This document shows positions 60,061 through 63,851 of a stretch of 64,000 nucleotides of DNA, in pieces; position 1 is the first letter of the stretch; each line of letters begins with the position of its first letter. Both the position numbers and the translations under genes were made by a program. Under the pieces are notes generated by a model. That model worked only from the letters and a program-made list of their open reading frames with translations. It searched no databases and was not told the origin of the DNA. The stretch is from Gammaproteobacteria bacterium. Lineage in GTDB: Bacteria > Pseudomonadota > Gammaproteobacteria > Pseudomonadales > Pseudomonadaceae. The stretch spans positions 1 through 64,000 of the forward strand of contig CAJCIO010000018.1 of NCBI GenBank assembly GCA_903970465.1. The letters run 5' to 3'.

Positions 60061-60453
60061 TCAGCCCCGGCTGTTGCGGGGCGGCAGCAGTTCTTGCAAC
60101 GCATCGCTCAGTTGCCCGATGCTGAACGGCTTGGCCACACAGTCCCGATCCGCCCATGTCTCAGGAATGCCCAGCCGGCCATAGCCGGTACAGAAGATGA
60201 ACGGGATGCCTCGATGGGCAATCTCGGCGGCGATCGGGAACGACGTGCCGCCGATGATATTGACGTCCAGAATCGCCAGATCATAATCCCCGGCGCGGGC
60301 GTATTCGACCCCTTCATCCAGCGTGCTGACATGGCTGGCGGTGGCGTAGCCGAGCTCTTCGAGCATCATCTCGATCAGCATCGCCAGCATGGTCTCGTCC
60401 TCGACGATAAACACCTTGGGGCGCAGTACGTGCTCAGTGACCGACAAGCTCAT
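60061..60453 (-). CDS. Single-domain response regulator
   Basis: A 130-residue receiver domain without an output domain. The phospho-acceptor is D63 (LAILDVNI), the acidic pair is E18-D19 (VFIVEDE), and the lysine lies in CVAKPFS. The threonine switch is in FIFCTGYG. It starts inside the stop codon of the phytochrome gene (4-base overlap), so it is its probable partner. It resembles receivers paired with HWE-type sensor kinases. It likely acts by docking to other proteins. Confidence 0.92.
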   Translation of the reverse strand: MSLSVTEHVLRPKVFIVEDETMLAMLIEMMLEELGYATASHVSTLDEGVEYARAGDYDLAILDVNIIGGTSFPIAAEIAHRGIPFIFCTGYGRLGIPETWADRDCVAKPFSIGQLSDALQELLPPRNSRG

Positions 60454-63400
60454 GAATCTCCGTCCGCTTTTTCGTGCCAGGGCAGGGTCATGCTCCAGCT
60501 CAGCCCTGTAGCGGCGAACAGCACCTGGGCCGTGCCGTCGAGCTCGCGCTCGATACTGCGGCGGATCAGTCGAAAGCCGAAACCTTCGAAGGTAGTCGCG
60601 GCGATGGGAGGGCCATCGGCTTCAAGCCAGTGAATGTTCAATGTGCGGGGGCTCGTGGTGGTGTTCATGGTGGCAGTGAGGGTGATGTGTCCACCCGGTG
60701 ATGAGTGCAGCGATGAAAGCGCCCCATGCTGCACGGCGTTGGCCATCAATTCGTGGAACACCATCGACAGCGCCAGCGAGGTTCTGGGTTCCAGCGTGAC
60801 CGGGTCGCCCAGCAACAGGATCCGGCCGGTGCCGCCTTCGGGTCGCTGCAGTTGCGCAATCAGATCCTCCAGCTCGCTGGACAGCCACTCTGCCCGCGCA
60901 AGGGCATCGTGGGCCTGGCTGAGGGCCAGGAGACGGGCATCGAAACTCTGGCGAAACGTCGCCAGGGAATCGGAGTTGCTGGCCGTCAGGGACGCTATCG
61001 CCTGCACCGTCGCCAAGGTGTTTTTGACTCGATGATTGAGCTCGTTGAGCAACCCCGCGCGGGTGGCGCGATCCTCCAGTTGCTGGCGCTCGAGCTTGCC
61101 CGAAATCGACTGGGCCAGGCGCGCAGTGGTGCCGCTCTGCTTGAGCACCGCCAGCTCGCTACCGATCGCCGGCCCCGAGTGAGCGGGCAAACTGAAGGTA
61201 AAGATGCTGCCGCAACCGGGTTCGCTATGGGCCCACAGGCGCCCACCGTGGGCCGCGATGATGCCTTGCGAGATGTACAGCCCCAGGCCGTTGCCACGCG
61301 GGTTGCCTTCCTTGACCGACCAGTAGCGCTGGAATATATACGGCAGGTTCTGCGCCGGGATGCCGACGCCGTTGTCGGCCACCTTGAACAGCACGTCTGC
61401 GCCATCGACGATCACATCGATGTCGATGGTGCCGCCCTGCGGCGTGAATTTGATCGCATTGCCGACCAGGTTGGACAGCACCTGGAAAATCCGTTCCGGG
61501 TCAGCATTGATCACCAGGCCGTCGGCTGCGGTGCAATTGAGTTCGATCTGCTTGGCAGTGGTCAGGGTCACCAGCAAGGCGCAGGTTTCCTCCAGCAGGC
61601 GGGTGACGCTCAGCGGCTGACAGGACAGCTGGTAGCGGCCGGCTTCGATCCGAGCGGTGTCGAGCAGGTCTTCGAGCAGGCTGTTCATGCGCGTCGTGGC
61701 ATTTTCGATAGTGGCCAGCGCGCGGCGAATGTGGCGGTTTTCAAGAATGCTGTCGCTGACCGCCCAGCGTTGCATCATCCCGCACTGCATGATGATGATC
61801 GACATCGGGTTGCGCAGATCATGGGAGACCACCGCCACCAGTTCATCGCGCATGCGCACGGCCTCCTGCTCGCGCTGCACCTGGCGTTCCAGGTCGTGCT
61901 CGAGCGCCGAACGGCGAATATCCTCGGCGGCATACAGATCGCCTCGCGACCACGGCTGGGCGATGCCGACGACCTGTTCTTCCCACACGTCGAACGATTG
62001 CCGTGGATGCAGGCGGTGGCTCGACGCGCCGGTCGACCCAATCCGCAAATGGTCGGCTGGATTGCCACTCCATTGCATGTTGGACGTGAGCTGCGGGCGG
62101 AACCAGATCACCGCGTTGTCCACAGGCTTGGGCAGCACGAAGGCGATCACGCCGCTGGCCACGTCACGGTAAGCCGCGGCCGGAGGGTGTTCCTGTTGCA
62201 GCGCGGCGCTATGGAACAGGCCCAGGCCTTGCAGCCCCTGGGTGCGTTCCTTGAGCTTTTGGCTGTTCAGGCCGACATCGCGGATCCACCGGTGCAAGGC
62301 GCGCACCTGAGCGGGCGTCGGGCAACTGCCGAACAGCTGCAGGTCATCTTCGATCAGCACGGCGACCCCGGTGGCCTGGGTCAAGGATTGCAGCAGTTCG
62401 GCGCGTGTCGCCAGCCCGGCGAGGATTTCCCGGTCGGCGCTGGCCATGGCCTCGGCCAGTTGCCCGAGCATCGTGACCTTGTCTTCGCGATCATGCTGGA
62501 TCTGGGTGGCGACGATGGCGCAGATCTTCACCGACAGCAGCTGGCCGATCAGGGCGCAGGCGTCGCGGTATTCGCGGGGCACCAGCAACGGGGCAGGGTG
62601 GCTGCAGGTGATCAGCCCCCAGAGTTCACCGTCCTCCAGCAGTGAGATGCTCATCGAGGACTGCACGCCCATGTTTTTCAGGTATTCGCAGTGCACGGGC
62701 GACACGCTGCGCAGCGTCGCGAAGCTCAGGTCCAGCGGTTGTCCGCTATCCGGTCGCAGCACTGGTACCAGCGGCACTGGGACATAGGTGGCATCGGGGA
62801 TCACCCGAATCCAGTTCAAGCGATACAGCGCCCGCGCCTGGGCGGGGATGTCCGAGGCCGGAAAGTTCAACCCGCTGTAGCTGGGCAGGCTGCCCGTCAG
62901 CGCTTGCGCCACTACCTTGCCGTGACCCTCGGGTTCGAAACGGTAGATGATCACCCGGTCATAGCCGGTCAGCGCTTGAATCTCGTGGACGCTGATATCG
63001 AACAGCGTCTCCAGGTTGCTGGTGGCCTGCAGGTTGCGCAGCACGCGGGTGATGGTCCTTGACTGCTCCTGCACCGGCTGCACAAAGGGCTCGAGCTCGA
63101 TGATCAGCAGGTCTTCATGGTGGTGTAGCGCCGCGCTGTAGTCGGCGTCGCCAACACTGACGCGGATGTGATCGCCATCGGCGCTCGGCCCTTCGGCGTA
63201 CGCCTGCTCGATCAATTGCGCCTGTTGTGCCGGTATCAATACTGACAAAGGTTTACCCAGCAGCGCGTGGCATTCGAGCCCTATGGCGCGGGCCAAATTG
63301 GCACTGACCTGCTCGATCCGCAGGGGCTGGCCGGCCAGGCTGAGCAAGAAGCCGTGGGGCTGTATGGCACCGGGTACCCGAATGGGCTCATCGGCGCAGG

Positions 63401-63458
63401 CGGCCAGCGCGGCATCGAGTGTGGTGACGCTGCTTGCATCCAGGGTTTGGTCGAGCAT
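60450..63458 (-). CDS. bphP: Bacteriophytochrome with two histidine kinase modules
   Basis: A 1002-residue red/far-red photoreceptor kinase. PAS, GAF and PHY domains fill residues about 20-520. The biliverdin-binding cysteine is C21, just before EPIRVPGAIQPHG, and the GAF motif FPASDIPAQARALY is intact. A classical HisKA follows, with H546 (VVSHDLRNPM) and an HATPase with NLVGNAIKFTPQ, DNGVGIP and NGLGLYISQ. After a linker a second kinase core appears: H809 in ELNHRVKNTLATVQAI, an N-box HELMANAVQHGAL and a G-box EGFGFRLIRRS, of the HWE/HisKA_2 type. The usual length is 730-770 residues. No haem oxygenase (bphO) gene is in the window. Confidence 0.93.
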   Translation of the reverse strand: MLDQTLDASSVTTLDAALAACADEPIRVPGAIQPHGFLLSLAGQPLRIEQVSANLARAIGLECHALLGKPLSVLIPAQQAQLIEQAYAEGPSADGDHIRVSVGDADYSAALHHHEDLLIIELEPFVQPVQEQSRTITRVLRNLQATSNLETLFDISVHEIQALTGYDRVIIYRFEPEGHGKVVAQALTGSLPSYSGLNFPASDIPAQARALYRLNWIRVIPDATYVPVPLVPVLRPDSGQPLDLSFATLRSVSPVHCEYLKNMGVQSSMSISLLEDGELWGLITCSHPAPLLVPREYRDACALIGQLLSVKICAIVATQIQHDREDKVTMLGQLAEAMASADREILAGLATRAELLQSLTQATGVAVLIEDDLQLFGSCPTPAQVRALHRWIRDVGLNSQKLKERTQGLQGLGLFHSAALQQEHPPAAAYRDVASGVIAFVLPKPVDNAVIWFRPQLTSNMQWSGNPADHLRIGSTGASSHRLHPRQSFDVWEEQVVGIAQPWSRGDLYAAEDIRRSALEHDLERQVQREQEAVRMRDELVAVVSHDLRNPMSIIIMQCGMMQRWAVSDSILENRHIRRALATIENATTRMNSLLEDLLDTARIEAGRYQLSCQPLSVTRLLEETCALLVTLTTAKQIELNCTAADGLVINADPERIFQVLSNLVGNAIKFTPQGGTIDIDVIVDGADVLFKVADNGVGIPAQNLPYIFQRYWSVKEGNPRGNGLGLYISQGIIAAHGGRLWAHSEPGCGSIFTFSLPAHSGPAIGSELAVLKQSGTTARLAQSISGKLERQQLEDRATRAGLLNELNHRVKNTLATVQAIASLTASNSDSLATFRQSFDARLLALSQAHDALARAEWLSSELEDLIAQLQRPEGGTGRILLLGDPVTLEPRTSLALSMVFHELMANAVQHGALSSLHSSPGGHITLTATMNTTTSPRTLNIHWLEADGPPIAATTFEGFGFRLIRRSIERELDGTAQVLFAATGLSWSMTLPWHEKADGDS

Positions 63459-63851
63459 GACGCGGCCTCCTAGGGTTTCAGGCGGGTACGGCTGGACGCT
63501 GCAATCGACAGACGGATCGATGCAGTAAGGTTTTCAGCCGGCCACAGTGAAGCAGGGGCGATCAGAGGCCCGGATGGACGCGCAAGGCTATGCGAGGTTA
63601 CCGCGAAGGTGCGGCGTAAAGACGTGGGGGTGGCAGGCCGGCTTGATGAGGGGATGGGCAGCGTGGCCTGCCTGAGGACGCGTCACCATAACAGGAGATG
63701 GCGGCATGCGTATGGTCTTTGGTCGATCTGCGCTGGCAGCCGGTCGGGGACCGGCGTATCGTTCGCACCGCGCGGGCGTTCGGCAAGGCCCGCAAGCCCG
63801 AAAACGGGCACCGTGAACGCCTTGCCAGCCTCTTCTGTTCGAGTACCGATA
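63459..63851. other. Gap between phytochrome and MATE genes
   Basis: A 393-base divergent region with short hairpins: GCCGGTC/GACCGGC near 63736-63752 and GCCCG-AAAA-CGGGC at 63796-63809. The latter is near the MATE start and could be a leader stem. AGGAGATGG at 63693 precedes a 36-codon frame that is probably spurious. Confidence 0.35.

Follow-up and report, generated by a model that had tools for sequence, protein, structure and literature searches.

A BphP2-type bacteriophytochrome of Pseudomonas with tandem HisKA and HWE kinase cores and an overlapping receiver gene

What does a light sensor do with two histidine kinase cores of different families? This question is raised by a gene near the end of the first 64,000 nucleotides of contig CAJCIO010000018.1 (assembly GCA_903970465.1, a gammaproteobacterium of the Pseudomonadaceae), a stretch referred to below as the window. 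The gene is an uninterrupted open reading frame of 1002 amino acids on the reverse strand, 60450..63458 (-), which encodes a bacteriophytochrome with the domain order PAS–GAF–PHY–HisKA–HATPase_c–HWE, and a single receiver gene overlaps its 3′ end. The reading we favour, at a probability of roughly 0.48, is that of a BphP2-type bacteriophytochrome whose two working cores act on two partners; the type occurs in the Pseudomonas syringae group, in P. graminis and in certain other Pseudomonas.

The ATG of the gene is preceded at a distance of 7 bases by the ribosome-binding-like sequence AGGAGG, 63466..63471 (-), and all six domains of the kinase gene (PAS_2, GAF, PHY, HisKA, HATPase_c and HWE_HK) score above the curated Pfam cut-offs. 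PAS_2 covers residues 21–124, 63087..63398 (-), and starts at C21, a cysteine ahead of the PAS fold that is found in all 11 full-length rows of our alignment and which we take to be the biliverdin-binding residue expected in this family. GAF follows at residues 148–303, 62550..63017 (-), with ASDIP at 201–205, and PHY at residues 333–520, 61899..62462 (-), with the tongue motif PRQSF at 485–489, so that the sensor is that of a bacteriophytochrome by its domains. The NCBIfam equivalog NF041576 scores only 308.3 bits over residues 16–529 against a cut-off of 1040, and the protein is therefore filed as a phytochrome by domains and not as that equivalog. A glycine 8 residues before PRXSF has been described as a marker of bathy phytochromes (PMC12362586); this position is glycine in eight of 12 rows, the window protein among them, serine in two and aspartate in two.

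The first core consists of a HisKA phospho-acceptor domain at residues 536–607, 61638..61853 (-), which scores 56.0 bits against a cut-off of 26.9 and holds H546 in SHDLRNP (codon 61821..61823 (-)), and of a HATPase_c domain at residues 653–759, 61182..61502 (-), at 111.5 bits against 26.4, with N663/N667, DxGxG at 695–699 and GxGLG at 722–726. It thus combines both domains with the H, N and D/G motifs of a HisKA histidine kinase. A linker at residues 760–805, 61044..61181 (-), conserved as LKQ...RLAQSI...LERQ and free of gaps in 13 rows, leads to the second core, which makes up the last ~240 residues. Here the HWE_HK phospho-acceptor domain at residues 806–882, 60813..61043 (-), carries H809 in NHRVKN (codon 61032..61034 (-)), and an HWE-type ATP-binding domain at residues 883–995, 60474..60812 (-), was recognised by profile match and by its motifs H902, E903, N907, W944-x-E946 and G959/G961. 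HWE kinases are defined by a histidine in the N box, W-x-E in the G1 box and the absence of an F box (PMC2222644); the second core has H902 and W944-x-E946 at these places, both invariant, and among solved structures the blue-light-activated kinase 5epv is matched by a profile built from the HWE half (E 3.5e-36). A preliminary description, made from the letters of the sequence, had already proposed a phytochrome with tandem HisKA and HWE cores, and the Pfam analysis confirms it, including the coordinates, H546, H809, the receiver residue D63 and separate ATPase motifs for each histidine. It had put the protein at about 250 residues longer than usual; the excess over PsBphP1 (residues 1–745; PMC11316798) is 257 residues, and within the C-terminal ~250 residues Pfam finds HWE_HK at 83.1 bits (cut-off 22.8).

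An AlphaFold model of residues 500–1002, built with an 11-row alignment that left out our loci L060 and L061 and genome G094, reached a mean predicted local distance difference test (pLDDT) score of 62.1 and a predicted template modelling (pTM) score of 0.43, with both phospho-acceptor domains poorly predicted; given this low confidence, nothing is concluded on the arrangement of the two cores. A Foldseek search with the model returned ordinary histidine kinases at the top. A 639-codon open frame, 60726–62645 (+), runs antisense to the kinase gene and probably arises from high G+C codon usage.

Are both cores maintained? The conservation analysis comprised 13 rows, 11 of them full-length, with L060 not reaching H546 and D547. 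All 21 catalytic or near-catalytic positions are invariant where covered, 19 in 13/13 rows and H546 and D547 in 12/12; ten lie in the first core (H546, D547, N663, N667, D695, G697, G699, G722, G724 and G726) and 11 in the second (H809, R810, N813, H902, E903, N907, A908, W944, E946, G959 and G961). No ATP-binding residue examined has been lost from either core, a loss that the preliminary description had named as fatal to its proposal, and the sole position to vary among those examined is R963, which is Q in L057. The ratio of non-synonymous to synonymous substitution (dN/dS) was estimated from 55 pairs among 11 of the 13 rows, with G094 outside the set; synonymous saturation removed 2, 4 and 11 of the 55 pairs in three of the six regions, leaving 44–55. 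Median values are lowest in the HisKA phospho-acceptor domain (0.065), followed by the HWE phospho-acceptor domain (0.102), the HisKA ATP domain (0.108), the sensor (0.123), the linker (0.157) and the HWE ATP domain (0.183). As synonymous change is high in many pairs, the close pair of the window and L051 is the better guide, and there the values are 0.147 for the sensor, 0.095 and 0.127 for the HisKA acceptor and ATP domains, 0.339 for the linker, and 0.060 and 0.226 for the HWE acceptor and ATP domains. Both cores are under purifying selection, with the HWE ATP domain the least constrained. Decay of one core is ruled out for the family by the invariant catalytic residues and by dN/dS, although the frames of L060 and L061 are broken. 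The spacing from H546 to H809 is 263 residues in 12/12 rows; it gives no evidence of a rigid linker, since the sensor half is equally constant (C21 to H546, 525 residues in 10/11).

The tandem layout was found in 14 Pseudomonas genomes, 12 of which have an intact frame, one in a complete chromosome (Pseudomonas sp. KUIN-1, L062). A search of 298 genomes of the genus gave a full-length match in five, the window's own included, and a partial match in one. A pattern scan of species genomes, whose patterns were drawn from the helix after H546 and whose reach is therefore limited to close relatives, turned up 13 loci, of which 12 show the tandem layout: Pseudomonas sp. MWU16-30317 (93% across the kinase half), P. 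congelans, P. amygdali, P. tremae, P. syringae pv. cilantro, P. viridiflava, Pseudomonas sp. CFII64, two P. graminis, P. syringae GR12-2, P. avellanae and Pseudomonas sp. KUIN-1. The total of 14 is made up of these 12, the window and G094, with G212, G056, G115 and G022 taken to be common to the genus search and the scan. The full-length copies in P. syringae pv. cilantro, P. congelans, P. amygdali, P. tremae and P. viridiflava share 70–73% identity with the window protein. Two of the 14 copies are broken, that of P. syringae GR12-2 (L060) into several frame-broken pieces and that of P. avellanae BPIC 631 (L061) into two; the receiver frame is still open at both loci. In a survey of 398 genomes of the phylum, a match over both cores was seen only in the window's own genome among the matches listed (the best four candidates per genome).

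Spread on plasmids was considered and rejected, as coverage of the query stays below 80% in all of the 758 plasmid records that match the C-terminal half and in all of the 100 that match the whole protein. Four of the 30 listed plasmid matches that seemingly reach both cores were opened: two are annotated kinases of 525 and 348 residues, a third, from Novosphingobium, is a 525-residue open reading frame in which the motif pattern found neither histidine box, and the fourth, an Ensifer adhaerens plasmid protein (L087:1261-4248), is a real chain with HisKA and HWE cores, as in the window protein, but in the order HisKA–HATPase–REC–REC–PAS–HWE and without a phytochrome sensor.

The layout itself is already known, contrary to the novelty that the preliminary description implied, as a paper of 2005 reported it for P. 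syringae PSPTO2652, described as a phytochrome with an additional C-terminal histidine kinase (PMC554113). In a census of 2007, PSPTO2652/2651 and PSYR2385/2384 appear as BphP2 accompanied by a stand-alone REC; the part cited here types BphP2 as GAF-HK and HWE_HK, with two cores not described there (PMC2222644). The window gene likewise encodes a phytochrome with an extra C-terminal histidine kinase and has a stand-alone REC gene 3′ of it; from the copies in other P. syringae-group genomes it appears to be the ortholog of PSPTO2652, and it is a further member of the type in another species. An ‘additional histidine kinase’ mentioned for Myxococcus was rejected as a parallel, being a separate gene in the passage concerned (PMC11832031).

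The overlapping gene, 60061..60453 (-), was identified by open reading frame and Pfam and encodes a stand-alone receiver of 130 amino acids with D63 in AILDVN (codon 60265..60267 (-), counted directly) and the motif PFIFCTGY. The kinase TGA and the receiver ATG share four bases, ATGA, at 60450..60453 (-); the preliminary description spoke of a translationally coupled single receiver, of which the receiver and the overlap can be read directly, while coupling is suggested by the overlap. A receiver frame lies 3′ of the kinase in all 12 named loci besides the window, and its start overlaps the kinase stop by four bases in 11 of them (one with GTG), the twelfth starting four bases past the stop. 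Within the small set of receivers compared, the nearest to the window receiver outside its own clade are those beside HWE kinases (37–47% identity, E 3e-32 to 4e-21), and next comes the REC domain fused to the HWE phytochrome of the same genome (E 1e-19), whereas one of the two receivers beside the genome's HisKA phytochrome matches only at E 0.009 and the other not at all. The receiver also resembles the FATGUY receivers MrrA and SdrG in being a single-domain protein linked to a kinase of the HWE/HisKA2 type and in its PF-x-F-x-x-G-Y. It departs from the FATGUY motif PFXFATG(G/Y) (PMC5964349) in one letter, having C for the A of FATG, with all other positions in agreement; the T is replaced by S in 11 of 13 tandem-clade copies.

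To which partner, then, would the first core speak? Residues 14–759 of the window protein align to residues 10–744 of the 746-residue chain of PDB entry 8u4x at 817 bits, an entry identified as PsBphP1 through PMC11316798. PsBphP1 has the same type of HisKA core but only this one, is 745 residues long, belongs to a bphO operon and, in the passages cited, has no clear receiver partner nearby (PMC11316798; PMC5654926). The helix that follows H546 reads HDLRNPMSIIIMQCGM in 12/12 tandem copies that cover it (MSIIIMQCGM). Among 25 BphP1-like proteins the same helix, with T for S (MTIIIMQCGM), occurs in three, the sister group L013–L015, and the remaining 22 have HDLRNPMT(V/I)ISMLCGM. A tree of the sensor and HisKA core groups the tandem proteins with the single-core L013–L015 against 15 other BphP1-like proteins (support 100/100); the tree is unrooted, carries a long-branch warning and used 18 of 24 BphP1-like rows, L026 and L069 having failed the pattern and L044 having been removed. 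The genes of L013–L015 adjoin heme oxygenase genes by Pfam, and none of the nine flanking reading frames with a Pfam match is a receiver, the matches being to heme oxygenase, TauE, glyoxalase, DUF4174 and the beta-lactamase family. A split version of the tandem layout was not seen beside these three sister genes. At L045, L046 and L047, single-core sister phytochromes that have the HisKA helix in common with the tandem proteins stand next to heme oxygenase genes. As L013–L015 share the helix without a neighbouring receiver, the surface around H546 pre-dates the local receiver, and the HisKA core looks tuned to a partner older than that receiver.

The second core seems to have a separate history. 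In a tree of HWE cores (37 of 38 rows, L060 left out) the tandem proteins form one clade on a long stem (100/100), and the two HWE phytochromes included form another (99/99). That the HWE core was taken from the genome's own HWE-REC phytochrome is thus unsupported, although the tree does not resolve the backbone between the HWE groups. The PAS-HWE kinases L103 and L104 of the same genus have an HWE core like that of the window protein but PAS sensors, with neither phytochrome nor HisKA core, and they show the same kinase–receiver order and four-base overlap as the tandem locus. A simple history would be that a single-core phytochrome acquired an HWE core together with its receiver once.

From these observations we infer activity in both cores, transmission of the light signal to the HWE core, and a partner of its own for each core. 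Light would alter the PAS–GAF–PHY sensor and, through the signalling helix, the HisKA core with H546, as in the single-core PsBphP1; the HisKA core would retain an ancestral, genetically unlinked partner, and the HWE core with H809, added C-terminally along with the receiver, would phosphorylate the overlapping receiver at D63. It is the greater age of the HisKA helix relative to the receiver, together with the HWE-linked character of the receiver, that suggests this split of outputs. The leading candidate for the unlinked partner is AlgB: PsBphP1 phosphorylates AlgB (PMC11316798), and the window genome has KinB beside an NtrC-type regulator, which is the AlgB arrangement. Two light-controlled outputs, as raised in the preliminary description, therefore remain the best reading, helped by receiver kinship and the retained HisKA helix, with the activity of the cores judged from sequence.

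Several points weigh against this proposal. With the ATP domain of the first core placed between the phospho-acceptor domains, no continuous helix that could carry the light signal to the HWE core is obvious, and the HWE ATP domain is the fastest-evolving of the domains. As to partners, the HisKA helix differs from that of PsBphP1, L to Q among other changes, and Psyr_2449 was a further in vitro target of PsBphP1 (PMC5654926). The type of a receiver does not fix its donor, as MrrA accepts phosphoryl groups from HWE kinases and also from one HisKA kinase (PMC5964349); nor is every HWE-linked receiver close to that of the window, given the much weaker score (E 4e-9) of the receiver next to the third, weak HWE_HK match of the genome (C184). 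According to a review, swarming in strain B728a was not significantly affected by BphP2 (PMC7691447), and an assay of either BphP2 core was not found in the openly licensed PMC literature, as far as the texts consulted extend.

An unlikely alternative is that the HWE core is the only output, the HisKA core having become a light-driven dimer and regulatory module that gates it, with the HWE core phosphorylating the overlapping receiver. This would agree with the closeness of the sole linked partner to receivers beside HWE kinases, and with the finding that the PsBphP1 sensor talks to its kinase via a light-driven HisKA dimer (PMC11316798). A mere scaffold, however, need not retain ATP-binding residues, and the first core shows no variation in H546, N667, D695 or the G box wherever the rows cover them, while the HisKA acceptor domain has the lowest dN/dS of all.

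Slightly less probable is a push-pull arrangement or internal relay, in which both cores act on one receiver, with the role of kinase for one and that of phosphatase or acceptor for the other; light would thereby set the net phosphorylation of D63, or make phosphoryl groups pass between H546 and H809 via the receiver. There is a single linked receiver, its PFIFCTGY is one letter off the FATGUY motif, and MrrA can receive phosphoryl groups from either class of kinase and hand them on to further kinases (PMC5964349); yet the HisKA helix is near-identical in sisters without a neighbouring receiver, which suggests tuning to another partner. In a more specific form, which we regard as speculative, cores of two families would meet on one receiver of HWE type, which would either shuttle phosphoryl groups from one histidine to the other, H546 and H809, or be acted on by the cores as opposed kinase and phosphatase. 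What red/far-red light sets would then be a ratio and not a switch, and an AlgB-like HisKA pathway would be linked to an HWE pathway within one protein.

That the HWE core is active but not under light control, sharing only expression and location with the sensor, we consider improbable. The HWE core and receiver do resemble a two-gene HWE module, and by domain order PHY and the HWE core are not evidently joined by a continuous helix, but 12 of 14 genomes keep the fusion intact, and the fixed distance between the two histidines also argues against it, if weakly, given the equally constant sensor half. That the gene is an artefact, whether a fusion in decay or, as the preliminary description had named in refutation of its proposal, a pair of genes run together by a frameshift or misassembly, can be dismissed with near certainty in spite of the two broken copies. 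The fused frame occurs in 14 genomes, its 12 intact copies come from separate assemblies, one a complete chromosome, and dN/dS is well below 1 across both cores; for the window these results refute it.

The window genome (G000) encodes three phytochromes: the tandem-core protein, a HisKA type and an HWE-REC type. The last, at L043:7673-10213 (G000:C120), is a single chain of 846 amino acids with the order PAS–GAF–PHY–HWE–REC, that is, a phytochrome sensor and HWE core like those of the window protein without the HisKA core. The HisKA-type protein, at L044:5055-10362 (G000:C57), has 781 amino acids and is followed by a 153-residue receiver and, in the same interval, by a 793-residue hybrid kinase with PAS, HisKA, HATPase_c and two receiver matches. 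Three phytochrome matches were likewise found in the near relative Pseudomonas sp. MWU16-30317 (G705).

These two genomes are also alike in showing no BphO-type heme oxygenase. A search with the BphO of L045 gave no match at E 0.001 in the window genome, whose assembly of 201 contigs leaves a gap possible for this genome taken alone, and in the same comparison it matched in all four other tandem genomes. Among nine named tandem-gene genomes BphO is present in eight, one of them with internal stops, and missing from MWU16-30317. No BphP1 match at 50–60% identity was found in the window genome or MWU16-30317, nor in G708, G711 and G115, although BphO is matched in these three. A single match to the heme oxygenase family exists in the window genome; it lies near a TonB-dependent receptor gene, and its nearest solved structure is Pa-HO (1sk7). 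Pa-HO is not known to produce the IXalpha isomer, and with no BphO match and this type alone, the question arises of how biliverdin IXalpha is supplied.

What is new here is the retained HisKA helix, the kinship of the receiver to HWE-linked receivers and the separation of the HWE core from those of HWE phytochromes. In the passages of the papers cited, phytochrome kinases drive a single kinase core; this lineage has retained two, of different families. With two cores, one sensor and one linked receiver, it offers a natural case in which to ask whether a single sensor helix is able to drive two kinases, and also how partner specificity is split between the cores.

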